A DNA stretch of 24,703 nt from Pigoraptor vietnamica (Eukaryota; Opisthokonta; Filasterea): the NCBI GenBank assembly GCA_943704525.1, contig CALSCQ010000030.1, positions 1 through 24,703 on the forward strand, given 5' to 3'. This document shows positions 94 to 24,004 of the stretch, piece by piece. Made by a program: the position numbers and the translations under genes. Position 1 is the first letter of the stretch, and every line of letters begins with the position of its first letter. Under the pieces are notes generated by a model, which saw only the letters and a list, made by a program, of their open reading frames with translations, made no database searches and was not told the DNA's origin.

Positions 94-3000
94 ATGCGAC
101 TGACGGCCTCCCCTCGTGCGACGGCCGCAGGGTCGCTGGGCCGCTTTTTTGGCGGGAAGCACAAGGACGGCAAGGAGCCGAAGGACGGTTCGAAGGAAAT
201 TCGGCGGGAAGACAGCGGGGGTGAAGTGCGCAAGCGCGCGGGAACGCTCGACGAGAAGCTTGCGCTTGTGGCGACGCGTCTTCCGAGCGAGCAGGCCCCG
301 TTGGACGGACCGCGGGTGCGTGCTGCGCAGAAATGCGTGCGTGTGCCCGTTTGTGTGAGGAGCGGTTACGTTGTGTAGGTCGCGGGTGCTGTTGTGCAAT
401 AATGTGTCCCCGTGTGCCCTGTGTTTGTGTGTGGCGGGGTATCGCCGTTAGGTGATGTAGGCGGTGCGTGAGTGTTCTGTGTTCTTCTCATTTGTCGAAA
501 TTCCGGTATAGTGTCTGTCTTTATGTGTGGCTTTCGGGCACTGACGCAACATCTTCCCCCCGTGCAGGCATCGGAGCAGCGGTGGACGGACTGGTACACA
601 CCCGAGGCCCTTGCGCTGCTTCCGAAGAACGTGCTCACTCTCCACGAGGCAATATGGGAGGTGTACACGAGCGAGGCGACGTACCTGGACCACCTCGGCG
701 TGTTGCAGTCGGTGCGTGACAGTGAGATTGCGAAGTGCGCTGCGTGTGCGTCGCTCGTTTTCGCTGGCTGTGTCGGCGATCACGTGACAGTGGGGCAGCA
801 GGAGTGGTGTGAAGGGTCGCTGCTGCGTGTGCGTCGTTCGTTGTTCGTTACGCTGCTTGGCCTTTGACAGTCAGTCCCAATGTGCGCACATGCGGTAGAT
901 ATTCCTGGGTTCGCTCAGGGACGTCCAGGGCGAGGACGCGCTCGTCGACGTCGATCCCCACGCCCTCTTCGGGAACCTCGACGCCATTCGCGAGACAAGC
1001 GCACGCTTTCGATCATCCCTCGAGCCAACCATGCCGCCAGGGGTATGGCCCCAAGTATATTATTACCCCCTCCCCCACTTCACCTCTCCGCTCGCTACAT
1101 CCCTTACCCTTGCGATGGCCTCTTGTGTTGCAGGCGACTGTTGAGCCGGAGCGGCGGCGGACGCACTCGGACCCTTCGAAGAAGAATGACGCTCCGGAGT
1201 CTGAAGAGCTGCTCAGCCGCAGCGCCGCGTCACCCGGACACGGTGCGCGAGGGATGTCCAGACACCCGTCGAACTCGCTCAAGGACAGCGAGCGGCCCAT
1301 TGGGCTGTACTCACTTTCGTCTGCGTTCAAGGGGGTGCGTCATCTGAACGTGTGCAGGCTGTTGCGTCACTCTAATTGTTGCGTCACTTTGAACGTGCGC
1401 GTGCATTTTATTGTTGCTGAGCGCACGCAGCACATTGACTCATCCACGCCTACCATGTCGCCTTGTAACCGCAACGAATCGCAACCCATGCACACTCCGC
1501 ACCGCTGACGCACTCCCTCGCGCAGTTTGCGGAGCGCTTTGAGCCTTATCTCGAATACTGCATGAACTACAAGCGGGCATGCGAATACCTGCGCAGCCTC
1601 GAGGATCGGTCCGACTTTCAGACGTGGCTGAAGGTGGATGCTCGTGTGCTTGTGCAATGCACTTGCGCGTGGTGTGCGCGCGCGTGCACTTGTCGTCGTT
1701 TTCTCACCGGTTCGTATTGCTCCGCTGCAGTGGTGCGAATCGCGGCCCGAGTGCAAGCGCCTCAAGCTCACCGACCTACTCGTCGAGCCTATGCAGCGCG
1801 TGACGCGATATCCGCTTCTCCTCAAGTGAGTGACACTGCCATGTCGCCGCATGTGCATGTGTGGGTGTGTGGGTGTATGGTCAGTTGTGTATGGGTGTGC
1901 TGGTGCATGTTCGATGTGCAGGCGTGTGCGCATGTGCCTAAACTTGTGTGTACGGCCACGTGTTCATTCTCGTGTGTTTTGTGTGCTCTGCCGTGCGTGT
2001 GAAGTCCACTCAATTTGTGCTTTCCTCAACAAGGACCGTGCTGTCGAATGTCCCCGATGGCTCGGCTGGTCGCCCGCTCATCGCGAAAGCCGTCGAGGTG
2101 CGCTGCCCGTAATGGACGGAAGCGCCCTCCTGCGACCGTGTACACGTGCTCACACACATTCACGCACGCGCGCACGCATATACGCACGCACGCGTACTGA
2201 CGCGCAATCGCAAACGAAATGATACGAGTGCACTATATTGTGTTTCTCACCCGCAATTCGCTGTCCCGCGCAGGTGACCGAGCAGTTTGCGTGCCGCGTC
2301 AATGCCCTCGTGTGGCATCGTGAGAACGAGGCGAAGCTGTTTGAAATTCAGCAGCAGATTGACTGGCACTCGATCATGGACGAATCGCCCATCGACTATG
2401 TGCCACAGGTGATATGCGCGCGCGTCGTGTGTGTAGTGCGTGCGTGTGTGCGCACGCGTGTACGTTTGAGTGTAGGGCGAAATTTTCGACCACGTGGACG
2501 TAAGAGAGGAGCGAGTATATGTGTTCTTGTGTGCGTGCGTGCACAACCATCGCTTACGAGTGGCCCGTCACGTGACACAGTTTATTTACGAGTATGTGCG
2601 CGACCGCCGCCTCGTCATCCTCGCGCGCGCCGACCGCACCTTTCTGATGGAGGGGAAGCTGTCGCGGATTGTGGGCGGGGGGACCAACGCCGTCGAGCTG
2701 CACGCGTACCTGCTCAGCGACATGCTCCTCCTCACGAAGCTGAAGAAGAAGCGCATGGTCCTCGTGCGTCGGGTGCGTGCTGTGCACGTGTGGCGTGTGG
2801 CATGTGTGTGGGCGCGAAAACATTGTGTGCGTGCTGTGCACGTGTGGCGTGTGGCAAGGGTGTGGGCGCGAAAGCATTGGTGTGCGTGCTGTGCACGTGT
2901 GGCGTGTGGCATGTGTGTGCGCGTGAATGTGCGAAAACATTGGTGCACGTGTGGCGTGTGGCATGTGTGTGCGCGTGAATGGGCGACAACATTGGTGTGC

Positions 3001-4523
3001 GTGCGTGTGCGTGTGCAATTTTGCGCACACCGCCACATCGAGAGATGGTCTTGAACGTACTTGAACCAGCAATGGTCTTGTGCTAACTTGATGCGGTTGT
3101 TACATGTGTGCGCAGCCGTTGAGCACGTCGTCGCTGCGCGTGTGGGACATTCCCGAGGATCCGGGTACGAATCGCATGGTGTTGAATGCGCTTCACGCGC
3201 GTGTGTATGCGCTGAGTGTGTGTGTGTGTGCGCGCGCGCTGTGTACGTGTGTGTGTGCGTGCGCTGTGTGCGCGTGTGTGTGCGTGCGCTGTGTGCGCGT
3301 GTGTGTGCGTGCGCTGTGTGCGCGTGTGTGTGCGCTGTGTGCGTGTGTGTGCGCGTGTGTGTGCGTGCGCTGTGTGCGCGTGTGTGTGCGCTGTGTGCGT
3401 GTGTGTGCGCGCTGTGTGCGTGAGTGTGTGCGCTGTGCCCATACGTCGCGTATCTCTATTGTCTAGACAAGCTGGCAAAGTGTCTTTTGTGTAACGTTAC
3501 TTGCCCGCAGGCAACCCTGCTCAAGTGCGCAATTCCTTCTTTATTATGGAAACGGACGCTCTCGGACTTCCTTCTTTGGCATGGACCGTCGCCGCCGAGT
3601 CTCCCGAGGCAAAGCGCGCGTGGCTGCGCCACATGAGCTCGATCGTCGTGTCTCCGCAAGCCCCCTCCGTGTCACTATCGGCGTCGCTGAACAGCAACGA
3701 CAGCCGGTGGGGCGAAGCCTTGGCAAGCCTCGCAGGTGGGTCTGCATTCATTTTGACGCGTGTGCAGCAAAAGATGAGACCTTGCCTTACACTCTTATTC
3801 TCTTCGCGCAGGCACGTCGTCGGCCGCCCCGTTGTCCCCCCTCCCACCGGGCGCACCAGGCGCACCCCTCTCCCTCTCGTCCTCTTCATCGATGTTCAAC
3901 GGCGTCGTGTCGCTGTTCCCTGCGTCGGGCGACTTCATGGTGCGCGTCACGCACATGCCCGGCGCCACTGCGGGCTCGCAATCGGCTGCGTCGTCCTCGT
4001 CTTCTGGCATGCTGTCGCAGGCGCAGCTGTCCTTCCGCTCGTTCGCGCTCCACGTACCGCCCCTCACACGCATGACGGAAGTGCTGGAGCGCGCATGCGA
4101 GCACGAGGGCGTGGATTCGACGGGATACGCCCTCGTTCGAGCTGAGGACGGGCACGCCGTAGACCTCAGCCGGTGAGTCCGCGTGTTTGTCTGCGGTCGC
4201 ACACAATTCACACATACGCACACACATTCACACGCACGCACACACACACACACACACACACACGCACAGACATTCGCACACACATTCACACAAGCTCGCA
4301 CACGCACGCACACACACACACGCGCGCACAGACATTCGCACACACATTCACACGCGCACACAAACGCTCGCACAGACACGCACAGAGCACAGACACACAG
4401 TCGCACATCGGCGGCTTACAAGCTGTTCGTTTCCCCTGCAGAGTGATCGACGACTCGGCCGTGTGGGACGTGCGTCTAGTGCAACACGGCGGCACGTGGA
4501 CGCGCACATCGTCACGGGGCTAG
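94..4523 (+). CDS. PLEKHG5-like RhoGEF: DH-PH with C-terminal RA-like domain
   Basis: Predicted guanine-nucleotide exchange factor for Rho GTPases, acting at membranes or cytoskeleton. Thirteen exons: 94-315, 568-711, 899-1042, 1134-1334, 1526-1633, 1731-1825, 2034-2097, 2274-2408, 2581-2772, 3116-3164, 3511-3735, 3812-4172, 4442-4523; 673 aa. The DH domain (about 97-371) opens with [14 protein letters not shown] and has the third conserved region [20 protein letters not shown] at 286-305. The DH sequence resembles PLEKHG5 as I recall it. A Ser/Arg/Lys-rich insert of about 50 residues (173-222) lies inside DH. PH follows (about 380-500; SDMLLLTKL, then AWLRHM in its last helix). After a Ser/Pro linker, 597-668 resembles a Ras-association fold ([14 protein letters not shown], then YALV). 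The 5' end is uncertain: ATG 94 is in frame, but 99-130 also looks like a branch point and acceptor, so an upstream exon may be missing. The exon 9 donor could instead be at 2764. Confidence 0.88.
2773..3005 (+). repeat. Intronic minisatellite, about 54-bp unit, four copies
   Basis: The RhoGEF intron after the first PH exon holds about four copies of a GT-rich unit whose core is gtgcacgtgtggcgtgtggc followed by a variable gaaaacattg segment. Copies begin at about 2773, 2827, 2882 and 2935 (the last lacks its first bases). The first copy starts at the 5' splice site itself, so each full copy carries a donor-like gtgcgt. Confidence 0.85.
3216..3432 (+). repeat. Intronic GT-rich minisatellite, about 22-bp unit
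   Basis: Intron 3165-3510 of the RhoGEF gene contains a tandem array built from gtgtgtgcgtgcgctgtgtg units, with shorter derived units towards its 3' end. Its open frames are Cys/Val/Arg-rich low-complexity translations and not genes. Confidence 0.88.
4201..4400 (+). repeat. CA-rich intronic repeat
   Basis: The last RhoGEF intron (4173-4441) is mostly (CA)n with longer imperfect repeats around cacagacattcgcacacac (two copies, near 4264 and 4328). It has the opposite strand polarity to the GT-rich repeats in the upstream introns of the same gene. Confidence 0.85.
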
Positions 4524-4851: not shown

Positions 4852-6791
4852 TCAGACGAGCAGCTGGCGCACGTGTTGCACGACATCGTCCATGCGAACG
4901 CGGCGCTGCTCGCCCGTGTCGCGGTCTCGCACAGTCACTGTGCCGTCCTCTACAGTCTTGGAATCGACGGTTATGCAACAAGGTGTCCCAATTTCATCTT
5001 GCACAACATAGCGCTTCCCTGCGGAGCCAAGTAAGGAGTTCAGGAGTGCGCATAGCACGCACGTCGCCCGCACGAAAGAGCACACACAGAGTAGACGCGC
5101 TTGTTGCTCAAATACACAGCAAAACCTCAATGCCCAACGTACCAATCGAGCCGTCCTTGTCATACGTCGACGGAATTCCAGCGCGCCTCAGTTCCGCGTA
5201 GATGGCAGACGCGCGCTCCACGAGCTCCGGTGCCTTCCCGACGACAGGGAACACGGCGGCCTTGTACGGCGCGAGGCGCGGATGGAGTCCAAGCACGACG
5301 CGTTCGCCGCGCCCTTTGCCGTCCCCCTTCTGCCCCGGATGGCCCTCCTTCCCATTCATCGGAGAGAAGGCGTCGCAGAGCACGGCGAGAAAGGCGCGCG
5401 TGAGACCCGCCGAGGGCTCGACGACGTGCGGCGTCCACTCCGCGCCCGTCGCACCGTCCTTCACCCGCAGCGGGGCGCCCGTATGTTTCGCATGGGCCGC
5501 GAGGTCGTAGTCGCCGCGCCACGCAATGCCCTCCACTTCGCCCCATCCGAACGGGAATTCGTACTCGATGTCGGTGCACGCGCGCGCGTAGTGGGCAAGG
5601 TCTCCGGACTTGTGTTGCACCGTGCGCAGGCGCGCGTCGCCGTGACGCAACAGCCCCTTCCACCAAGCGAGGCGGTCGTTCGTCCACTGCGCCAGCGCTC
5701 CCGGCGCGGCCTCTTCGCCGCAGAAGTACTCTAACTCCATCTGCTCAAACTCGCGCGAGCGGAACACAAAGTGCTCAACCGAGATCTCGTTGCGAAAGGC
5801 CTTGCCAATTTGCGCAATGCCAAACGGCGGACGGCGGCCCGTCGCGTGCATCACGTTCGTAAACTGCGTGAAAATGCCCTGCGCCGTCTCCGGTCGAAGG
5901 TACACCGCGCCCTGCTCTGCAGCCGCCAGCGCCGCCGCGCGCATCTCTGCGGGTGGTTTGTCGCGGTTTGCAATCGCGGCGTCCACGGCGAGCCCAACGG
6001 CGTCCGTCACGCCCATCGACGTGCGGAACATGGCATTGAAGAGGCGCTCTGGGCCTACAAACGGCGAGTTGGCAGGAGAGGCGTACCCGGCGAACGGCAC
6101 AACGACGGGCGGGGCATCCGGTGCGGCCGCACGCAGCCTCAAAGTGCGCGCAGTCCCGCCTTCACCGGTCTGCTCCGCGTCCACACAGACGAGTCGCACC
6201 TCGCTGCCCTTGCGATCGACGGCAGCGCCAGGGGCCAGCGACTGTGCGATGCGCTTGGCCCACTCGATGGCCGTCGCCGCATCCGGGGCCGCAATGGCTA
6301 CGACTCCGTTGGGTCCCACGCGGAGGGGCGCTGCCTTGTCCGCGCGGAAGCGGGTGCCGGACAGCGCGCAATCCGAAAGGCGATCGGTGAACAGCTCGAG
6401 GTGTCCGGACGCAGCGAAGAGGTCGCGCGGTGCCATGATAGCCGTGTCGACGCCGACGACATCGTCGCGCGCGTGCACGATGGAGCGCCACCTGTGCGCG
6501 ATTGCAGATGCGTGAGCATGGTCGCTGGCTCAGTTTACAATCCCACTCACTCCCACTCATTAATCGCAGGGTGATGACAACGCACACATACACGCACATA
6601 CACACGCACACACAAAAACGCACGCGTACACGCACGCACCATTCGTTGGCAATGTTGCGCTTGAGCTCCACGCCCAGCGGTCCATAGTCATAGCAGCCGC
6701 GCAGTCCCCCGTAGATTTCCGCCGACTGAAACACGAACCCGCGCGCCTTGCAGAGATGGAGCAGCGCGTCAAACGCCGTGCGCCCCGCCAT
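4852..6791 (-). CDS. Glycyl-tRNA synthetase, bacterial dimeric type
   Basis: Class II aminoacyl-tRNA synthetase that charges tRNA-Gly; the bacterial alpha2 type, cytosolic and/or organellar. Three exons on the minus strand: 6791-6640, 6491-5143, 5018-4852; 555 aa. Residues 18-45 contain [15 protein letters not shown] and [11 protein letters not shown], the family N-terminus. [11 protein letters not shown] (248-258), class II motif 2 with RNEIS (284-288) and motif 3 [11 protein letters not shown] (406-416) are present. The anticodon-binding domain ends with [12 protein letters not shown] and [14 protein letters not shown] 6791 fits the family start, and an in-frame stop lies a short way upstream, so no mitochondrial presequence is seen on this exon. 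Odd: the region that usually carries zinc-ribbon cysteines keeps only DC...RFRAD, and an Ala/Gly-rich insert of about 80 residues (105-185) stands in place of the rest. Both introns are short (148 and 124 nt). Convergent with the RhoGEF gene. Confidence 0.96.
6583..6638 (-). repeat. Short GT/CA repeat in GlyRS intron 1
   Basis: Intron 1 of the GlyRS gene (6639-6492) begins with a GTGCGTGCGTGT-type tract (CA-rich on the plus strand) running from the donor site. It is the same class of repeat as in the RhoGEF introns. Confidence 0.7.
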
Positions 6792-9529: not shown

Positions 9530-12500
9530 TCACGAGAGGGTTGACAGAAGGCGCGTGATGGTCGAGGCAATGCGGCCGAACCCGCGGCAGGCGTCCACGG
9601 CTGCGGCGAGCGCCTGCGCAAGTTGCGGTGCGCTGCCCTCGACGACGTTCACGCTCGAAGCAATGTGACCAAACGGATATGCGCAGGGGTTCAGCGCGAG
9701 GACAGCGTCGAACTCGAGGCATGCCTTCGCGTCGACGAGGCGCAGAGCAACAGAGCACTCGCGCGCGTCCGCTCCATTCGAAACGGTCAGCACGGCGCCG
9801 TGCTTGGCCGCGACGGCGCGGATTTCGCCTTCCACGGCGGCCACGCGCGAGAGACGGCGAGCGATCGCGTCCACAACCTGCGGCACAATAGCGTGTGAGT
9901 GCTGTGCGGCAGTGCGATTGCGGCACAATACACGGGTAAGTGCTGAGACAGCAGTGCGACTAAGCGGCCGAAAGGTGCCCCACCGGCCGCACGGACTTGG
10001 ACGTCGTGCACGCGCCGAGGATCTGCTCAGCACCGGAAGCGGCGAAAAGGGCGCGCAGTGTGTCGTCGCAGTCGGGGGCCAGCTGGAGGGCGCACGACGC
10101 AAGGGGAACCTCGCCGTTGGGTCCTGACAAGTGTCCCAAATTGCCCGTCAGCAAGCAAGTAGTAACGAGCACACACGAACACATGCGGAAGAATCACAAG
10201 TGCCACACTCACCGACGGCGGCCGTGCGGTCGAAAGCGACAGTGAGTGCGCAGCGTCCGTCCAAAAACGCAAAGCGGAGGTGGTCCATCGACGCCGCCTC
10301 CACGCCAAAGACGGAGAGGGCCTCCGCAAGCTCGCAGTTGTCCGCGGCGGCCTCCACCGCCGCAGGGGACGTCTGGCGCGCCTCCTCCACAGCGCGGCTG
10401 CGTGCTTCCGCAATGGCCGCACTGAGGCGCGCGTTCTCTGCCTTGGCACGCTCGACATCCGCTGCCACTCCACTCAGGTATCCCTTTGCGGTGTCGACGC
10501 TCATCGCCATCCCCCTGCACCAGAGGCAACATCATGCGTCAGTGTACACGTAGTAGGTAAAGTGATGCCCAAAATCGGTCATGTTCGCGCTCACCGCATC
10601 TTGCCCTCGAGTTCGCGGGCCTCTTCTGCGCGCGCGGCCATCGCGGCAAGGTCGTGGGGAGCGAGGGCGTGGCGCTCCATGCGGCGCACCTCGCGGGCCA
10701 TCCAGTCGCGGCGGGCGCCGAGCTCTCGCAAGGCCTGGTCCGCGCGCGAGTCGAGGGCGCGCATGCGGTCGGCGTCTTCGCGCAGCAGGAGGGCGTTGTC
10801 CTCAAACTCCTCGGCAAGCGCGGCCTCCAGCTTGCACTGCCACTCGTAGCGCTTCAGTTTCGTCTCCATGCGCGAGTGCGTCTTGAGCTGCCGCAGCGCC
10901 TGGTGGAGCGGCCCGCGCGTGTGCGGCGCCTTCGACAGGGCCGCAAACACCTTGGGGTTGGCCTTGCTCAGCTCCCGATCGAGCACCTCCGTGTTCGCGC
11001 GGATGGCGTCGGTGGTCTCGTCGAGGTTCTCGCAGCCCCACTCCATCAGCGCCAGCTCGGGCAGGACCGCGCACTTGACACGCAGCCGCTCCGAAAGCAC
11101 GCCGAGGTCGGCCGGGGGCTGCATGGCGCCGGCGACCGTCGTGCGACGACGCGAGGACAGGTTGTCGAGAAAGCTGATGCCCGCCATGCCGAGAAAGTCC
11201 GCGACGGACACAGCATTGCCCTCCGCAACACCCGCCGACGCCACCGACGCCGACGCCGACAGACCAAAGATGGCGGCGAATTCCATGGTGAGATCGCCCG
11301 CAACGGCGATGTCCTGGGCCGCCGTGATCGGAGCCGACAGGGCGACCGCGGGAGCGACCGGCTGCGCGGGCACCTCCGCCAGCGTGACCAAGGGCGTGAA
11401 CGAGGTGTCCTGCGCCGTTGCATGTGCCGCAGAGCCAGCGGGCTCGGTGCTGCTCATTGCCGCAACAGGCTCAGGCGCAGCGCTCAGAATGCCTCCGTGC
11501 GCTGAGGTAAACTCCATGGTGGCGTCGGGGACGTCCGGTTCCCCAGAGAGGACGCCGCCGTGCACCGTCGTGAACTCCATCGTTGTCTCGGCGGGCACAT
11601 TCGCCGAATCGTGCGCCGCAAGCACACCGCCGTGCACCGACGTGAAGTCCATCGTCGACTCCGCAGGCGCGTGCTCCTCGTCCCCCGGGGGCAAGATGCC
11701 GCCGTGGACGTTGGTGAACTCCATCGTCGTCTCGGCGGGTGCATCTGCAGGCGAGTGCGCCGCGGCAAGTATTCCGCCGTGGACAGAAGTAAAGTCCATC
11801 GTCGACTCTGCGGGCGCGCTTTCCTCTGTCCCAGACATCAGGATGCCGCCGTGCACAGAAGTGAACTCCATCGTCGTCTCGGCGGTTGCAATCGCGGGCG
11901 AGTGCGCGGCAAGCACGCCGCCGTGCACCGACGTGAAGTCCATCGTCGTCTCGGCGGGCGCGCTCTCCTCTGCGCCAGAGTGCAAGATTCCGCCATGCAC
12001 TGACGTGAGCTCCATGGACGCCTCCATTGCGTCCTCGGCAGCCTCCGGGGCGGCAGAGAGAATGCCGCCGTGCACCGACGTGAACTCCATCGTCGCCTCC
12101 GTGGGCTCCTCCGCGGCATTGGGAAGGTAGAACACCTGCGACTGCGACGCAAAGCTCACGCGGCGGTCGATCCCCTTGGGCACGTCGCGACGCGCGCGCT
12201 TGGCGGGGCGCGCATCCTCAAGGTCACCGAGCGTGTCGGCAGAATTTGGGTCGAGCTCAAACAGCGCGCCGCGCTTGTGAACCGGTGTCCCGGGGCCTGC
12301 CTTGAGGATCTGCGGCACGATGCGAAAAGTGAGATGCACATCAGAGGAACACCGCGAAGCCACAGCTCGATTGCGAGGGAATGCCGAGGCCAAGCGAATG
12401 CGTTTTGAGTGTGACGGTAAGTGCGGCGACAGACAGCTGTCGTGAAGAAAGGAATGGTGAGAGGTCCATGAAAACGACGACGATGGTCGTTCAGCGCTCA

Positions 12501-12582
12501 CCCCCGAAGCGCGACGGGCGTGCGCCTGTTGCGCCTGCATTGTCGCCGCAATCGGCGCGTTCTCTTTGTCCGCTGAATCCAT
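9530..12582 (-). CDS. KNL1: Kinetochore scaffold KNL1/Spc105/Spc7
   Basis: Outer-kinetochore KMN subunit; phosphorylated MELT motifs recruit Bub3-Bub1, and N-terminal motifs recruit PP1 to silence the spindle checkpoint. Five exons, minus strand: 12582-12502, 12309-10595, 10514-10213, 10123-9984, 9877-9530; 861 aa. Start at MDSADKENAP. Splicing of the 192-nt first intron creates RRASGILK, the [GS]ILK PP1 motif (27-30); RRVSF follows at 76-80. Nine MELT-like motifs (M[DE][FL]T) have their Met between 101 and 292; TMEFAAIFG near 369 is a decayed tenth. FLGMAGISFLDNLSSRRRTT (about 396-415) matches the Spc7-domain signature. A helical, probable coiled-coil region runs to about 640. The C-terminal part probably holds the tandem RWD region that binds Mis12/Nsl1 in other species; this is placement by family, not by motif. 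The first intron is a multiple of three and open, so simple ORF calling overreads it and would start at 12708 in the promoter. Confidence 0.95.
11486..12097 (-). repeat. KNL1 MELT-repeat array, nine units of 63-75 bp
   Basis: Coding tandem repeat. The codon for the Met of each M[DE][FL]T lies at about 12090, 12015, 11943, 11871, 11799, 11724, 11652, 11580 and 11517, giving spacings of 75, 72, 72, 72, 75, 72, 72 and 63 bp. Each unit reads TM[DE]FT-S/N/T-V/A-HGG-I/V-L plus a linker. Linkers alternate between an acidic type (SGxEESAPAE-like, before units 3, 5 and 7) and a His/Ala type (AAHSPAxAxAE-like, before units 4, 6 and 8). Confidence 0.93.
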
Positions 12583-13030: not shown

Positions 13031-16000
13031 ATGTCACCCCTACCACGCAGTGTGACTCTCCTCAGCATCAGCCTTGCGCTGTGGGCGGGCGTTGCAGCCG
13101 CGACCCCTTTGCAGCGCGTTAATCTGCAGGGCATCCCGCTCATGCAGTTGGGAATCCCGCTGCGCAACGACTCTTTTCAGGACCTTGTTAGGTGCGTGCA
13201 GTTGTCCGTGCGCTGAGATTGTTTGGGAGAAATGAACGCTGGCGCCTTCTCCACCGTGTGCGCTGCCTTACTGATGACCCATTGCGTGTGCAGGCCGCTC
13301 GACATTGATCCCGTATTTGACTGTGGCGTCAAACAGGCCGCGTGGGACTATGCGCGCATGCTTCTCCCCGAGCGAGGGCCTCTCGTGCAAGTGTTCGACG
13401 CCTTCCAGCTTGGAATAGCGCCGTGTAACGGCACGAGACCCTCGGCGACTGATGCGCGGCTCGTGCGCGCCCAGGTTGCGTCCGCTGCGAAGGCGTACTA
13501 TGCCGACTCGCACAGGAACGCCGGACCGACCCTCTTCGTTGACCCGGAAAACGGGCGCGACGCGATGGGCGGCGGGAGCGAGAATGCGCCGTTCAAGTCG
13601 ATTGCATATGCCGTTGCGCAATCGCGCGCCCTCCGCGCAACGCTGGCGGACGGCGTGACCGTGCAGATACTGCTGCGGGGCGGGCTGTACCAAATCGCGC
13701 GGGAAATCGCCCTGGGCCCCGAGGACAGCTTGTTGGACATTGGCGCGTTCGGCGACGAGGAACCCGTGCTCTCGGCTGGCTGCCCACTCCGCGCGCTGTC
13801 GTGGGCGCCCGTCGCGCACCCGCCGGCGCAGCTTCCGAAGGGAGGGGTCGTGTACGTCGCCAACGGTGGGAGACACGATTTCGGGATGTCAGTTGCATGT
13901 GTTCCATTCGCTCATGCTTTCAATCACGCAGTGACGGCGTCGGGATGCGGCCAATTCGACACTCTCTTCGTGAACGGACGGCGTGCGGTGCGCGCGCGCT
14001 ACCCGAATGCGAATCCGGAGACAATGGGGTTGCACACGAACACGACTGGCTACATCATGAGGGTGGGTGGTTAGGCCGGCGAACACCCTGATCCTGGCAT
14101 TGCAGTGTGCAAATAGTAGCGTGCATGCTGGTTGCTCAGCTCGTCCCGCGCGCTTGCGGCGGTAGTCTCTTGTTAACCTTCTGACCGCCGACGGATGTGC
14201 TCAGACGGCCGCATGGCTCCCCCCGCGTCCGTCGCCGCCAGCAACCGAAGTGCGCATTGACACACCCACGCGGCCCGGCTATTTTCCGTCGTACACCGTG
14301 GGTATTGGCGGTCCCGTTAGTCAGTACGACCCGCCCGTCAACTTTTTCGCGAACGTTTATGCGATTACAAGCGGCGTGCAATATTTTCCGGAGGATTTGC
14401 CGAACCGAACTTACGCGCACCCGGAGACTGGTGAGTGAGCACGCCTTCAGTTGTCAGTGCGGGACGACTCAATTCCATGGCTTCACCTTGACGCATGTCT
14501 CGCCGCAATGCCGTACGGGTTCTCATGGCTGCTCCTTCCGCACACACAGGAATTGTGCACGTGTTCCATTATGCCCATTGGGGTGAGTGTCGTTGTGCCT
14601 AATGATGGCCGAGTTTGTACTCGCGTACTCCATTTCAGTTGCCCAAACTGAAGGCCCCGACTGACTGTTTTCGATGGCAGGCGGTTGGCAGTTTCGCATC
14701 GACACACACGACGAGGCGAACCACACGTTCACATGGTCGTACGGCGGCTTCCAGGAAGCGCGCGGGGCTGCCGAGGGGGTGCGTGGGCGTGATGCTGCCT
14801 GACCGTCCGATCGGCTATGTCTATACTGTGATTACGACCGCATCTGTGCCGTGCTTTCTTGTGTGAGCGGGCCGGCGTGCACACGCATGTGCGTTTCCGT
14901 ATGTTAGTACGACTGGTGCGAGGTGTGCGTGTACACACGTGTCATGTCTATGGATGCCGTGCGGCGATCGCGTCGTAAAAGTGCGTGTCTGATGTGTCAA
15001 TGTGTCTCAATGTGTGTGTGGTATGTCGGTGTTCATGGTTGGTGTGTATTAGAGCGGGCATGCGACAGCTCACGTGCCTCTTCTAATAGCGTTCACTTGG
15101 CGAGAAAGTCCATGCGCGTCGGCTGATGTCTCCGTGCTTCACATTGGTCGGATTAGGGAGCGGAATTCTACCTGGAAAACCTCTTCGAGGAGCTGGACTC
15201 CCCCGGCGAGTGGTACCTCAACCACACTACGAACGAGCTCTACTACTACCCCAACGCCAGCGACTTTGCTTCTGCCGTCTTCACCGCGTCCGGTGTGGAG
15301 ACCATCTTCCGCATCGGTGGGAGTATGAAGGAGCCCGTGCGCAACGTGTCCATCCACGGGCTCACGTTCACACAAACCGCCCCGACGTTTCTTAGACCGT
15401 ACGAAGTGAGTTACCTACCGCCGGTCCCCTTGAGGTTTTGTTCCCGTTTTACGCACGTCCCTTTGCCGGAGGCTGTGTGTCAGTGTAACTCTTATGTATG
15501 GACGCTGACGTGTTTATCTGCCGTGGGCTTTTCAAGGCGCCTTCGGGAGGCGATTGGTCGGTCCACCGCGGCGCGACCGTCTTCGTCGAGGGCGGTGAAC
15601 ACGTCGTCATCGCCGGCAACACGTTCAACGCTACGGGCGGCAATGCCGTGTTCCTGTCCAACTACAACCGCGGGGCTGTCGTGGCGCGCAACGAGTTCTT
15701 CCTACTGGGCGACAGCGCCATTGTGTCTGTGGGATCGGTGCGCCTCAACGACGGCACGGACGGCAACCAGCCGCGCGGGAATCTCATCGAGGGCAATCTG
15801 GCGCACGATTTGGGCGTGTACGGCAAGCAGGTGTGCGGGTACGTGCAGTCGCTGTCGTGCCAGGCGAGGATCCGCAACAACGTGTTCTTCAACGGCCCCC
15901 GCGCGGGCATCAACCTGAACGACGGGTTTGGGGGCGGCAATAGCGTCGAAGGGAATCTCGTATTCAACATGGTCCGAGAGACAAGCGACCACGGGCCGCT

Positions 16001-16912
16001 CAACACGTGGGACCGCGTGCCCTACCTGCACGACCTCCACGGGGACGGGGTGGCGTCGCTCGTGCCCGTTATGAACAAAGTGACGTCGAATTTCTTCTTC
16101 AACAACTACTACGCAAACTGGCCCATCGGTACGAGCGGCGGCGATTTTTGACTGTCATGTGCTGATTAGAATCTGTGTCGGGAGTCTGGACGTGATAGCA
16201 TTGACGCTCACTGAGCACGTCGCGGCTCTATCATTACTCTGGCGTGTTGTGATTGTAGCCAGTGCCCGTTCTCTGCCACTGTTTCGTGTGGTTTTGTGTT
16301 GAGGCGTTTGCGTGCGTGCAGACCACGACGACGGATCGGCGTACTACTACGACACGGGCAATGTGCTCGTGTACGGGGGTTACAAGAGCTTTCTGGGCCA
16401 CCACCACACGGTCACAAACAACCTCTACCTTTTCGCGGACGCGAGATTCTATGGCAAGCTGGTGCGTGCATGGTCCGAGTTGCAGTGTGAGCAAAGTGAT
16501 TCGACTTTGCGTAGCGCATCGACTTTTCTGACGGCGGCTGTTGGGGCGACTTCCTGTCATGCAGAACGCCTGCCCGATGTGCATCATTTCGGTTTTGGGA
16601 CAGCCGGGGGTGAGCAATTACGGGAACGTGTGGACGAACAACATATGCGTCCTCCAGTACGATTGGACCCCGCCGTACTATCTGCTGCCATGTGACGAGA
16701 ACGACACGGGCGGCGTCATACCCTTCACCGCATACAACGTCTTCTACAACCCGGCCGGCGACCTCCCCCACCTCGTGTATTGCGGGGACGTCTGGTGGAA
16801 CATCGCGCGTGCACAGCTGCACGGCTACGACACGGGTAGCACGGCGCGCACTACGCCCCCCTCCAAAGACCTTGTGCAAATGGCGCGAGACTTCCTGAAA
16901 ATCAAGTCGTGA
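13031..16912 (+). CDS. Secreted right-handed beta-helix glycosidase-like protein
   Basis: Predicted secreted or lumenal pectin-lyase-fold protein, probably a carbohydrate-active enzyme. Ten exons: 13031-13191, 13294-13865, 13932-14062, 14205-14430, 14550-14582, 14681-14778, 15157-15405, 15537-16128, 16322-16461, 16565-16912; 849 aa. A signal peptide is clear (SVTLLSISLALWAGVAAA). Family-like motifs are VDPENGRDAMGG...APFKSIAYAV, LLRGGLYQI, LFVNGRRAVRARYPN, FEELDSPGEWYLN, then repeated beta-helix rungs (HVVIAGNTFNATGGNAVFLS, RIRNNVFFNGPRAGINL), and IDHDDGSAYYYDTGNV at 687-702. This resembles large bacterial and eukaryotic right-handed beta-helix hydrolases, but I cannot assign substrate or CAZy family. 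Exon 5 is only 33 nt. The 66-nt intron 13866-13931 is a multiple of three; without it the frame also stays open. ATG 13031 is chosen for the signal peptide. Confidence 0.85.
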
Positions 16913-19105: not shown

Positions 19106-22100
19106 ATGCCTCGCGCTCATTCCAGAATGACGCGGCGCGTTTTCCCGCTTGTTGCTCTCCTGTCCCTCGTGCATGCGGTCGCCGGGGCAACGCGCGCCGA
19201 GGGCCTGTGGGTGCCCGACTTCTTCTCCCACAACATGGTCCTGCAGGGAGCGCCGTACGCGGCTCGCATCTGGGGTGGGTCGCTGTCGAGGCACTGCGCC
19301 GCTGCCAACGGACTTCCGTGGAATCACGCACTACTTCGAGTTCTCCTCGTTTTCAGTTCATAGTCCTGCCGTCCGAGTTGTGGTCAGAACTTGTCAGTCG
19401 CCGCTCATCGTTTGACTGTCAACTGTGGTCGGTGCCGTCCTCGCTGAGCGGCTTTATGTTTTTTTCGTATGTTTTTCAATTGTTGCCAGCGGTCGCCGGA
19501 CAATGACTGCCGTGGTCTTACTGTGGTGCAAAGATAGATGCGCGCTAATGTAATCTCTGACCGCCGGTTGTGCATGCGCATCGCGTCAGGTTGGGCTGTT
19601 CCCTACGCGCGAGTGTACGTGTCCGTCGGGGAGAACGTGGTCAAAACGTACGCCGCGCCCGTCAAAGGGAACTGGTTGGTAGAGTTTCCGCCGCTTCCCC
19701 ACGGCGGTCCTCACATGCTCACGATTTCTTCGGGGTATGGCTCCATAATTTTTGCGAACGTCATGGTCGGGGACGTCTTTTTCTGCTCGGTAAGCCATGG
19801 CAATGCCCCACTGACTCGTATGATTTTGAGAGACACCTGTTCAAATGATCGCCGCCTCTCCTGTTCTGAGTTCGGTCAGAGGGTTATTCAGTGGCGGTTG
19901 CCAATGCTGCTCAATGTATTATAGCTGAATTGAACTGGCATCGATTCCGAGTCACTCTGTTGTTAATTGGTCACTGTTTCGGTCCCCGCATTGTATGCCG
20001 GTCTCACTCGCCGACGGCTGCGACCGCGCTGATGTGCAGGGGCAGTCTAACATGGCCATGACTGTTGGCGCGACGTACAATGGGTCGCTTGAGGTGGCCA
20101 ACTCGGCTGCATACGGGAAATATATCCGCATCTTCACCACTCTCGAGGGATATCCACACCATATGGGGGATCCCGTCATCAATCCAGCGGAACCTCAATA
20201 CGACGCCCTGTCCAACGTACGTACAGCGTGTGCCGTGACTTTGGTGTACTTCATCGCAATAATGTGTATGTTTGCAACTTCCGCGATTGCCGTGCAGCTT
20301 GAATGTTAAACCGCATGCACGCAAGCCATGCACACTCGTGTACATCACTTGAATTACCCAGCTGCTGTCCGCGCGTTACTGATAGTGCATTGTTTCACGA
20401 TGGCGCAGGCGCCCTACGAATGGGCTCCTGTAAGTCCCGAGAGTCTCGACAGCCCCAGTTTCTTCTCGGGCTATGGTAGCGCCCTTTGGTACGTGGAAGC
20501 AACCTGGCATAGCGCTGCATCGCCTACCACGGTGACCGAGAATGGCACATGACGTCTGTAAATGACACTGGACTTACGGTTGTCCATTATATTATCGACT
20601 TCCTCGCAGTTATTATTTTGCACGCGACCTCGTTCAAAGCAACATCTCAGCAATAGTGGGCATTGTTGTTAGGTGCGATTCTGACTCAAACTACGTTCCC
20701 TCGGTCGCACCCTTCCCCCCGTCACTCTCACTGCGCACCCCGGCTGTTTCCTGTCTCCTTAATTAGCCGATTTCCTTACTACGTATCTTCCGTTGATTCA
20801 CAGTGCTGTGTCTGGAACACCAATAGAGAGTTGGAGTTCACCCGAAGCGATCATGCGTTGTCCCATGGATATGGGAACGTTTGTAAGCGAACTTCAAGAA
20901 TCGCTTCGCGGAGTATCGTGGTTGGTGTCCTTTATGGATCCAACTGATCTTGCCACTCGATAACTGTTGTTGCAGTTTGTTCTCAGTCAAGTGTCTTCTG
21001 TTTTGCGCAGGGAGCTGGATGGCCTCTTCCGCCTGTACAATCAAATGATCCACCCCTTTCTAGGACTCGCCATACGTGCCTTTATTTGGTAGGTGTCCCC
21101 TCACCTCATCTTCCCTGAGGTTTTTTGATCAATGCGCATGACAGTTAGTACAGTACAATCTGTGTTGTGCTTCTCCGTTGGTACCTCTGTGACTGTCGTG
21201 GTGATCGCGTCCCTCACTTCCGCGACTATTTTGTTGCCGGCACTGCAGGTACCAAGGCGAGAATAACTATAATAGCTCAAACTACGAATGTCGACTCCAA
21301 GCGTTCATAGACGACATTCGCAATAAGTTTGGCCATGAGACGTTTCCCTTTCTTGTCGTGCAATTGACACCCGCGCCTCGGATCCGAGAGGCCCAAATGG
21401 TACGTTTCCTGAAGTAAGTCGGGCGTTGATCTGGCTCGACGATTTTTTCATTACTTTATTCTCTGACAGCAGGCTACTGCCGGCTATTCTCATTTGTTAA
21501 TCGTCAATGATTTTGGGGATGACCGACACACTCACACTTGCTTGCTTTTGTTTTGCCAGGGTGCTCTTGCACTCCCCTTTGTCGGCATCGTTCCGTCATT
21601 TGATCTTCAGTGAGTACGTCAGTCAATTGCGCTTTCATCAGTTTAATTTATTATCACTTGACTCACTGTTGAAATTTTCGTTGTGTGCGTGCTGTGTATG
21701 CGCTATATGCATGTTTGTGTGTGTACGTGTGTGCGTGTGTGTGCGTGTACACACATGCGCGCGCGCGTGCCTGTGTGTGTGTGTGTGCGTGTGTCCGTGC
21801 GTGCGTGCGTGCGTGTGTGCGTGTGAGTGTGCTTGTGCATTGTGTGTGCGTCTGTTGGCATGCCACTATTTTTGTGTGCGTTCTTGCAAAATTTTCGAAG
21901 GCAATGGTCCTTTCTTTAGCCTTTTCCCCGGATAACATTAATAACTGAACTTGTGACAGAGATCCCGATTCGCCTTACCGTGCCCTTCACCCGCGCAACA
22001 AGCAAGAGATTGCACGACGCCTCGTGCAGTCTGCACGTTCCCTCGTTTATAACGAAACTGGTGTCGCTAGCACTGGGCCACGTTTTCAATTCGGGCTTGT

Positions 22101-22918
22101 TGCAAGTGAGTGAAGGTAGCCGGCCCGTCACATTTATGGCCAAACTTTGTTCTCATCTTTCCCGTTGGAAATTTAAGCATTACTAATCTTGCAATCCTCT
22201 GTGTTTCAGATGGGACAATTCGTGTTGCCTTTGCTGTCCACTACAGTCGCGCTGTCAAATTGAGAGGGACCGAAAAATGCACAAGCTGTTGTGCCGGCTC
22301 TGCTGGCTTCGAGCTGTTGGGGGCCGATGGAGAGTGGCGGCCTGCTATTTCAGCCGTCGTCGATGTACGGAACGACACTGATCACCTTTCTATGGAAAGT
22401 GTTCATTGGGTGGCTGTTGTTGTTGTGGAGGCGCCGGAGCACTTTGGGGGTATTTTTGGCATACGTCATGCGTATGACGAGACTCCAGAGTGTGCGCTGT
22501 ACAACGACCAAGGCCTGCCAGCGTTCCCATTCCAGGCACTTGTGCGAAAGTGAGTGCACTCATTGTTGGAACTGTTCACATTTCTCTGTAGGTCTTGGAC
22601 TTAGCAAAATTGTGCTTTCACTGTCCCAGCGGGTCGGGATGTGCTCTTGCTGATGCGCATGAAATCCGCATGAGTCCGTTGGAGCCAGCCGCCCCAAGTT
22701 CTACATCGCGGACAAAATTCCCCCTCGCCATCTCACTTGCTGCGTCACTTGCTGGTGTTGGTGCGCTTTTAGTTGGGATGGGCACAGTGTGGTGGTGCAG
22801 AGCATCCTGTGGGCATGCTCGACGTGGATATAAGTCGTTGCGTACGATTTCTCCAAATGGGGACGAGGTTGCCTTGGCCGATTGGCCTCACTCTGTCAAT
22901 GCAGAATTCTACATATAA
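19106..22918 (+). CDS. SIAE: Sialate O-acetylesterase with C-terminal membrane anchor
   Basis: Removes O-acetyl groups from sialic acids in lysosomal/secretory compartments; substrate in this organism is not shown. Twelve exons: 19106-19274, 19590-19789, 20040-20216, 20409-20488, 20610-20672, 20804-20882, 20976-21088, 21249-21399, 21560-21609, 21960-22105, 22210-22549, 22630-22918; 618 aa. A signal peptide (FPLVALLSLVHAVAGA) precedes FFSHNMVLQ. Catalytic Ser126 lies in CSGQSNM, WYQGE at 294-298 and catalytic His371 in LHPRNKQ. SGTPIESWSS matches the family GGTPIEAWSS. After the catalytic domain, one hydrophobic helix (about 554-578) and a 40-residue tail with GYKSL (589-593) follow; typical SIAE is soluble. 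Intron 21400-21559 is chosen over a small extra exon at 21473 because it gives the gap-free join REAQM-GALALPF. Start 19106 or 19127. Later exons are less GC-rich than other genes here. Confidence 0.94.
21680..21852 (+). repeat. GT-rich repeat in SIAE intron
   Basis: The 350-nt intron 21610-21959 contains gtgtgtgcgtgtgtgcgtgtac, an acacatgcgcgcgcg inversion and further (GT)n/(GTGC)n tracts. It resembles the intronic arrays of the RhoGEF gene. The frames running through it are low complexity. Confidence 0.8.
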
Positions 22919-23127
22919 ATGTGAATTGGCCGCCCAGAAACTAGCCGCGGCTGGGTTGGCAACAACCGCAATTCACAAGGAATAGTATTTGGAGATTTTT
23001 TTTTCATGTAATACTAATTAAAAATGCAGGACTGGTTTTAATGAATTCAAAACAAAACCGAAGAAACAGAACAGATTTGGAATAGGTCCACCCTAGATTA
23101 GATACGTTTTATAGCCAGCCGTTTTGT
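22919..23127. other. SIAE 3' flank, AT-rich
   Basis: Just after the SIAE stop the sequence becomes AT-rich, with a T run at 22997-23005 and taatactaattaaaaatg at 23011-23028. It probably contains the SIAE polyadenylation site, though no canonical AATAAA is seen. It also marks the start of the compositional change in the window. Confidence 0.5.
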
Positions 23128-23344
23128 TCATTGAGTTACACAAAATAACCACGAGTGCCCTGCATAGCCAAAGCCATCCAGGCCGCCATGCTTGTGCTCA
23201 GCTGCCACACCCAGTGAGGTAAAGGGAAGTTGTCGAGCAGGACAAGTCCCGCTTCGGGAAGTCCAGCAAGTATGGCACGGATCCCACCAAGGCCATAGTG
23301 TGTGGTATGCCGGCAGCTGATGGGCACTGAAGAGCACCGAGGAA

Positions 23345-24004
23345 TCATGCGGCACACAGGCCGGCAGCAGTGCTGATGGATGCCAAAAATGGAGGCATGA
23401 AGCAGTCTCGAAAATGCATGAGTGGGGTGCAAGGCATTTGCCATCCACATGTGCATGGATGACTTTGACAGTGCACCTGCAGGTGCACCATCTTGCGCAC
23501 CACCTTGTGCACCACCTTTGTGGCCAGTGATGGTGGTGAGACAAATCCCGGCACATTTGTGGCACCCGTCCAGAAGTGAGACCTTGAGCCGCATTCTTGA
23601 ACCACCTGATCAGCAGCAACAGAAAGGGCATCTTGGAAAGCCTGGGAATGTACATGCAGAAGCACAAAGACACCTAGGCAGGCAAGGCGCAGATGGTTGA
23701 GTGCGTGGCAGTGCTGGTCTGTGCCGGCAACAGGGACACGTGCTGTATAGGGCACCATGTAAGAGAGAGGGGGATAGGGATTGTTCTCCTGTTTGTGAGT
23801 GACAAGCGGGTAACACCTTGTGGCACTGTACCGCGCTCGCAGAGTGAGAAAGAGACGTGAATGGAGCTGCATCAGAGGCCTAGTAGTGGGCAACTCAGAG
23901 CATTCTGATTGCCTAAAGGCCTGGGTTGTATCCGAGAAAATTGATTTTTGACAGCCAGGTGACCTGAAATTATCTCTTATGGGAATTCTCATGGGTCCGG
24001 ACAA
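23345..24004 (-). other. Unrecognised open frame in the atypical tail
   Basis: A 219-codon minus-strand frame with His/Cys/Val-rich content. Part of it (QAFQDALSVAADQVVQECG near its middle) looks protein-like, but part is a low-complexity translation of the gcaccaccttgtgcaccacc repeat near 23480-23520. Another minus frame (23136-23594) overlaps it. No domain recognised; codon use differs from the seven genes. It may be an old repeat-derived reading frame or chance. Confidence 0.2.

Follow-up and report, generated by a model that had tools for sequence, protein, structure and literature searches.

KNL1 is laid out, in excerpts from PMC5371998, as a protein that carries a PP1 site, MELT repeats, a coiled coil and tandem RWD domains in this order. 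The parts of three further papers that deal with the repeats (PMC3779320, PMC6018199, PMC7292645) describe how Mps1 phosphorylates the MELT threonine and how Bub3 reads it: residues 1 and 3 of the motif enter a hydrophobic pocket, whereas residue 2 and the phosphate meet a basic patch. SILK and RVSF are given as the PP1-docking motifs of Knl1 in a section of PMC6018199. In yeast, according to part of PMC7292645, the copy number and the strength of the MELT motifs set the strength of the checkpoint. The arrays themselves are said to grow by iterative expansion and diversification (an excerpt of PMC10577578, citing Tromer, Snel and Kops 2015). Here we analyzed a MELT array in a 24,703-nt stretch of DNA from Pigoraptor vietnamica, referred to below as the window, in which two classes of unit alternate.

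The KNL1 gene and its surroundings

The gene occupies positions 12582-9530 of the minus strand and consists of four exons (12582-10595, 10514-10213, 10123-9984 and 9877-9530, with the stop within the last one) that are joined across GT-AG introns into an open frame of 925 amino acids. This model was spliced by hand, and its start codon and splice sites were inferred and are not based on transcripts. From the N- to the C-terminus, the protein shows an RVSF motif, the MELT array, an Spc7 domain and a Knl1 RWD match. The first of these, RRVSF (12151-12165, minus), was read from the translation upstream of the array and is a putative PP1-docking motif, as in KNL1; a SILK-like but non-canonical PQILK was read in the same way at 12301-12315 (minus). 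The frame holding the array matched Pfam MELT_2, a mainly fungal model, with an E value of 9.6e-30, and six stretches passed individually. Downstream of the array lies the Spc7 domain (10672-11223, minus; PF08317, E 1.2e-22, 80.7 bits with a cut-off of 34.5), which corresponds to residues 501-684 of the stop-to-stop frame. The Knl1_RWD_C match (9833-10465, minus; PF18210, E 1.2e-7, 32.4 bits with a cut-off of 27.8) corresponds to residues 25-170 of a hand-spliced C-terminal piece of 270 amino acids and covers parts of exons 2 and 3 and the start of exon 4; both sets of coordinates were converted by hand. It was the one match to the RWD domains of the KNL1 C-terminus, and it was obtained on this hand-spliced piece. 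The predicted structure of exon 4 placed strands between two helices, at a mean pLDDT of 45.4 that is too poor for use. Judged from MELT_2, Spc7, RVSF and the one Knl1 RWD match, the protein is a eukaryotic KNL1/Spc105/Spc7 kinetochore scaffold, which bears out the name given to it in the original prediction.

Solved structures gave no match to the exon 1 frame up to E = 1, and no relatives were found in one scan each of genome contigs and viral contigs. Pfam matches to M20_dimer (at cut-off) and Stv (below cut-off) in the array region were taken as composition artefacts. Near the inferred N-terminus we noticed DKENAP (12553-12570, minus), which we take to resemble a KEN box, and, at 11275-11292 (minus), LTMEFA may be a decayed tenth MELT motif with Ala in place of Thr. 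An antisense open frame of 426 codons crosses the MELT array on the plus strand (10850-12130) and probably arises from the high G+C content and the repeats.

Several other features were seen elsewhere in the window. A minus-strand frame at 5108-6529 resembles glycyl-tRNA synthetase (PF00587, E 3e-8), and its five best solved relatives are glycine--tRNA ligases of 442-505 amino acids (8u2q, E 8.5e-77); compared with the 693-amino-acid type (2pme, which we take to be human), its best stretch covers 63 residues. Its best matches are presumably bacterial, and the frame may be a bacterial-type glycyl-tRNA synthetase in a eukaryote. An apparently split gene on the plus strand (13217-16151) matched a right-handed beta-helix (PF13229, E 5.4e-6) and, just below cut-off, a GH141 insertion domain (PF21231, E 6.2e-6). 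A split RhoGEF gene is suggested at 1469-3054 (plus) by weak matches to RhoGEF (E 0.0016) and PH (E 0.0078), neither of which reached its cut-off. A minisatellite at 2773-2997 has units of 52-54 bp whose 92-96% matches make them much more uniform than the MELT units, and GT/CA-rich tracts lie at 3201-3437, 4198-4399 and 21708-21851. The G+C content was 0.49-0.52 at 20001-24000 versus 0.56-0.68 across the first 20 kb. No RNA families or tRNAs were found within the window.

Interleaving of two unit classes

The array runs over 11485-12090 of the minus strand and contains nine units, each made of an M[ED][FL]T core and a linker. Every core has 11 residues of the form M[ED][FL]T-[STN]-[VA]-HGG-[IV]-L; eight of the nine begin with M[ED]FT and one with MELT, followed in each by xxHGG[IV]L. 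The core of unit 1 (12058-12090, minus) and that of unit 9 (11485-11517, minus) mark the two ends, within 1 and 7 bases of the predicted placement at 11486-12097. Units were numbered by core, with the linker after the core, and were assigned to class A (acidic linker; units 2, 4 and 6) or class B (His/Ala linker; units 3, 5 and 7). They form three dimers on the minus strand: units 2 and 3 at 11872-12015 (144 bp), units 4 and 5 at 11725-11871 (147 bp, owing to an extra codon in unit 5) and units 6 and 7 at 11581-11724 (144 bp). Flanking them are unit 1 (12016-12090, minus), an edge unit that is closest to unit 8 with 78% identity, and, at 11485-11580 (minus), unit 8 (63 bp) together with the core of unit 9, edge units that joined neither the A nor the B group in the tree. 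The linkers of units 1 and 9 both start with SAAPE, encoded by codons that differ at four of the five positions.

The earlier description had placed the linker before the core. Read in this register, its units 3-8 give acidic-MDFT followed by His/Ala-MEFT three times over, with unit lengths of 72+72, 72+75 and 72+72, so that the strict alternation and the dimers of about 144-147 bp described for these units were found as such (144, 147 and 144 bp). The A linkers contain SG or PG plus EE, whereas the B linkers read A(A)AH...AETT, and Lys or Arg occurs in none of the nine linkers. The two linkers had been called chemically different, and a contrast is present. However, it is milder than claimed, because the numbers of acidic residues (3, 3 and 4 in A versus 1, 2 and 2 in B) leave a gap of only 1-3 residues, and because two of the A linkers, those of units 2 and 6, contain His as well.

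Tandem Repeats Finder scored a period of 144 at 531, a period of 72 at 246 and a period of 291 at 652, and gapless autocorrelation likewise peaked at 291 (0.599; 0.508 at 147 and 0.501 at 144). With gapped alignment of units 2-8, the similarity was 0.749 at lag 2 and 0.729 at lag 4. Because these two values are nearly equal, we explained the peak at 291 by the extra codon of unit 5 and set a four-unit period aside. When the units were aligned by codon, identity was 74-81% among A units and 76-83% among B units, and 58-65% in the nine A-B pairs, with no overlap. The excess of lag-2 over lag-1 similarity was reached by 88 of the 5040 orders of units 2-8 (linkers 16/5040, cores 942/5040) and, for all nine units, in 505 of 20000 shuffles (linkers 442, cores 2243). 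These order tests cannot be very strong, because a random order of three A and three B units alternates with a probability of 2/20. Among the 27 informative sites of units 2-7, seven split A from B exactly and five more were disjoint; against a tidy split, a letter common to both classes was found at the other 15.

A unit tree was built by neighbour joining with 1000 codon bootstraps. With all nine units, A clustered with A at a support of 0.79 and B with B at 0.96, as had been predicted, and with units 2-7 only, the A/B split reached 0.996. Neighbours as closest relatives, which would have spoken for the opposite history, were looked for and not found. The alternation also persisted after codon alignment in the linkers (0.99 for units 2-7) and came near to vanishing only in the core (0.68, or 0.49 without codon 2, the E/D codon), so that the core alone carries little of it. 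Units 2-7 grouped together with a support of 0.72, and a split joining units 1 and 8 had 0.69; a fourth dimer starting with unit 8 is not favoured, since this unit groups with unit 1. Branching among the three dimers was poorly supported (0.38-0.53). The interleaving of A and B in units 2-7 is thus confirmed.

Origin and age of the dimers

Growth by single units cannot readily interleave two classes, because single-unit tandem duplication gives contiguous clades. Array growth was simulated with random units of 72 bases, in a model that had neither selection nor gene conversion, at five mutation rates with 3000 runs each. Single-unit tandem duplication produced the lag excess in 0/3000 runs at each of the five rates and perfect 3+3 interleaving in 0/3000. 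Two-unit growth, simulated as a first single copy followed by two-unit blocks and cut to seven units, produced the lag excess in 1392-2923 of 3000 runs and perfect interleaving in 1057-1246. Synonymous redraws were then made, in which codons were resampled from the whole gene (array included) with the amino acids kept fixed. The within-class DNA identity of 0.782 was matched in 0/1000 redraws (linkers 0/1000, core 64/1000), and the gap between within-class and between-class identity in 6/1000 (linkers 23/1000, core 44/1000). Therefore, the A and B classes each share ancestry at the DNA level, and an alternation made by selection or convergence alone is disfavoured.

The tree, the simulations and the synonymous codons together support the earlier claim that the array grew by two-unit blocks. 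We put at about 0.87 the probability that an A-B pair was copied to three dimers in a two-unit register, the linkers being inherited markers. We infer the following mechanism and succession of events: one A-B pair, present in an older array together with the edge units 1, 8 and 9, would have been copied to three dimers by unequal exchange or slippage in a two-unit register. Strong synonymous divergence of the dimers would have followed, with the cores being kept under strong purifying selection. On the simplest view, the differences between A and B linkers would be what was inherited from the block duplication.

It is also conceivable that the units were duplicated singly and that the alternation is secondary, produced by convergence or by gene conversion between units two positions apart. 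A hint that units may exchange sequence comes from core codons 4-6, which group neighbours: ACT TCT is found in units 4 and 5 and GTC in units 5 and 6; outside the array, ACT makes up 2 of 32 ACN codons and TCT 5 of 46 TCN codons. However, single-unit histories lead to contiguous clades and gave the pattern in none of the 3000 simulations per rate, from which conversion and selection were left out, and within-class synonymous codons are more alike than the amino acids explain. Gene conversion at a two-unit register, for its part, is hard to tell from block duplication. We regard a single-unit origin as very unlikely. Short exchanges between adjacent cores may nevertheless overlie the block history, as these few sites weakly suggest.

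The original prediction had placed this growth recently, which is not supported. At fourfold sites, identity was 15/30 (0.50) for A-A and 25/41 (0.61) for B-B, compared with a chance identity of about 0.38 derived from codon usage outside the array; within-A identity was no higher than that between A and B (39/78), a point against the block history, and units 1, 8 and 9 shared 44/122 sites with the other six, all from pairs that are not independent and from few sites. The array is orderly and its dimers differ in length by one codon only, as a recent expansion of the dimer would have it, but the dimers are 75-81% identical, and within-class dS, when pooled, amounts to 0.88 for A and 0.65 for B. 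From the fourfold sites and the dimer identity, the duplications are therefore old on the synonymous scale, and a recent expansion is the least probable of the readings weighed here.

The pooled within-class dN/dS, also from few sites and non-independent pairs, was 0.06 in the cores (bootstrap interval 0.00-0.19) and 0.38 in the linkers (0.13-0.88), suggesting that the linkers are probably partly constrained, far less than the cores. When pooled, the linker value reached 1 or more in 28 of 2000 bootstraps, whereas the intervals by class were 0.07-1.36 for A and 0.09-1.04 for B.

Linker classes and known MELT arrays

All nine units provide Met, Asp or Glu, Phe or Leu, and Thr. By analogy with the described systems, we infer that the present protein is phosphorylated by Mps1 and binds Bub: Mps1 would phosphorylate the Thr of each M[ED][FL]T core, Bub3-Bub1 would bind cores modified in this way, and PP1 docked at RVSF would undo the modification.

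The original prediction also proposed two functional classes of Bub-binding sites, for which we found no positive evidence. The nine cores are all M[ED][FL]T, and the alternation of Asp and Glu by itself gives no ground for two classes because the consensus permits either at position 2. The linker classes look inherited, and linkers are less constrained than cores (0.38 versus 0.06). If A and B linkers tuned Bub3-Bub1 affinity or kinase access differently, selection would maintain the alternation; in keeping with this, the class features persist despite wide synonymous divergence, the pooled linker dN/dS lies below 1, and yeast and human arrays are known to contain MELT motifs of unequal strength (part of PMC7292645). 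However, the class-by-class intervals exceed 1, so that constraint on either class is not secure, the acidic-residue contrast is small, and the known differences in strength, according to the same source, lie primarily in the MELT residues, which here fit one pattern throughout. The alternation also follows from block duplication alone, as the simulation showed. Such tuning is very unlikely in our view. Rated still lower, as highly improbable, is the idea that the A-B dimer itself is the functional unit, in which neighbouring Bub sites are paired, for example as one strong and one weak site or as sites for two Bub3 complexes, and selection keeps the pair as the DNA diverges.

Copying of an A-B pair, the preferred reading, would have a consequence of its own: growth by pairs would add docking sites two at a time, in a system where copy number sets checkpoint strength in yeast. 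If the pair were a functional unit, the array would provide a natural test case for why motifs within an array are unequal. No title on a dimeric MELT array was among those listed in our literature searches, though such a paper may exist. The abstract of Tromer, Snel and Kops (2015) is said to describe higher-order multiplication.

Compared with KNL1/Spc105/Spc7, the RVSF motif, the MELT array, Spc7 and the Knl1 RWD match stand in like order, with one RWD match here. The consensus M-[E/D]-[L/I/V/M]-T, as given in an excerpt of PMC3779320, does not include the Phe found here at position 3, a residue that is hydrophobic all the same. In yeast Spc105 and human KNL1, as here, repeats within one array differ in sequence; there, according to part of PMC7292645, it is primarily the MELT residues that differ, with an effect on Bub1 recruitment, whereas here the differences lie mainly in the linkers. 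Repeated duplication is common to this array and to the rapidly evolving MELT arrays (part of PMC10577578), whereas the strict three-fold A-B dimer with two linker types may be what sets this one apart. It provides a clean single-genome example of a MELT array for which growth by single motifs is very unlikely, and its duplication pattern, which is real but fairly ordinary, fits the known evolution of MELT arrays.
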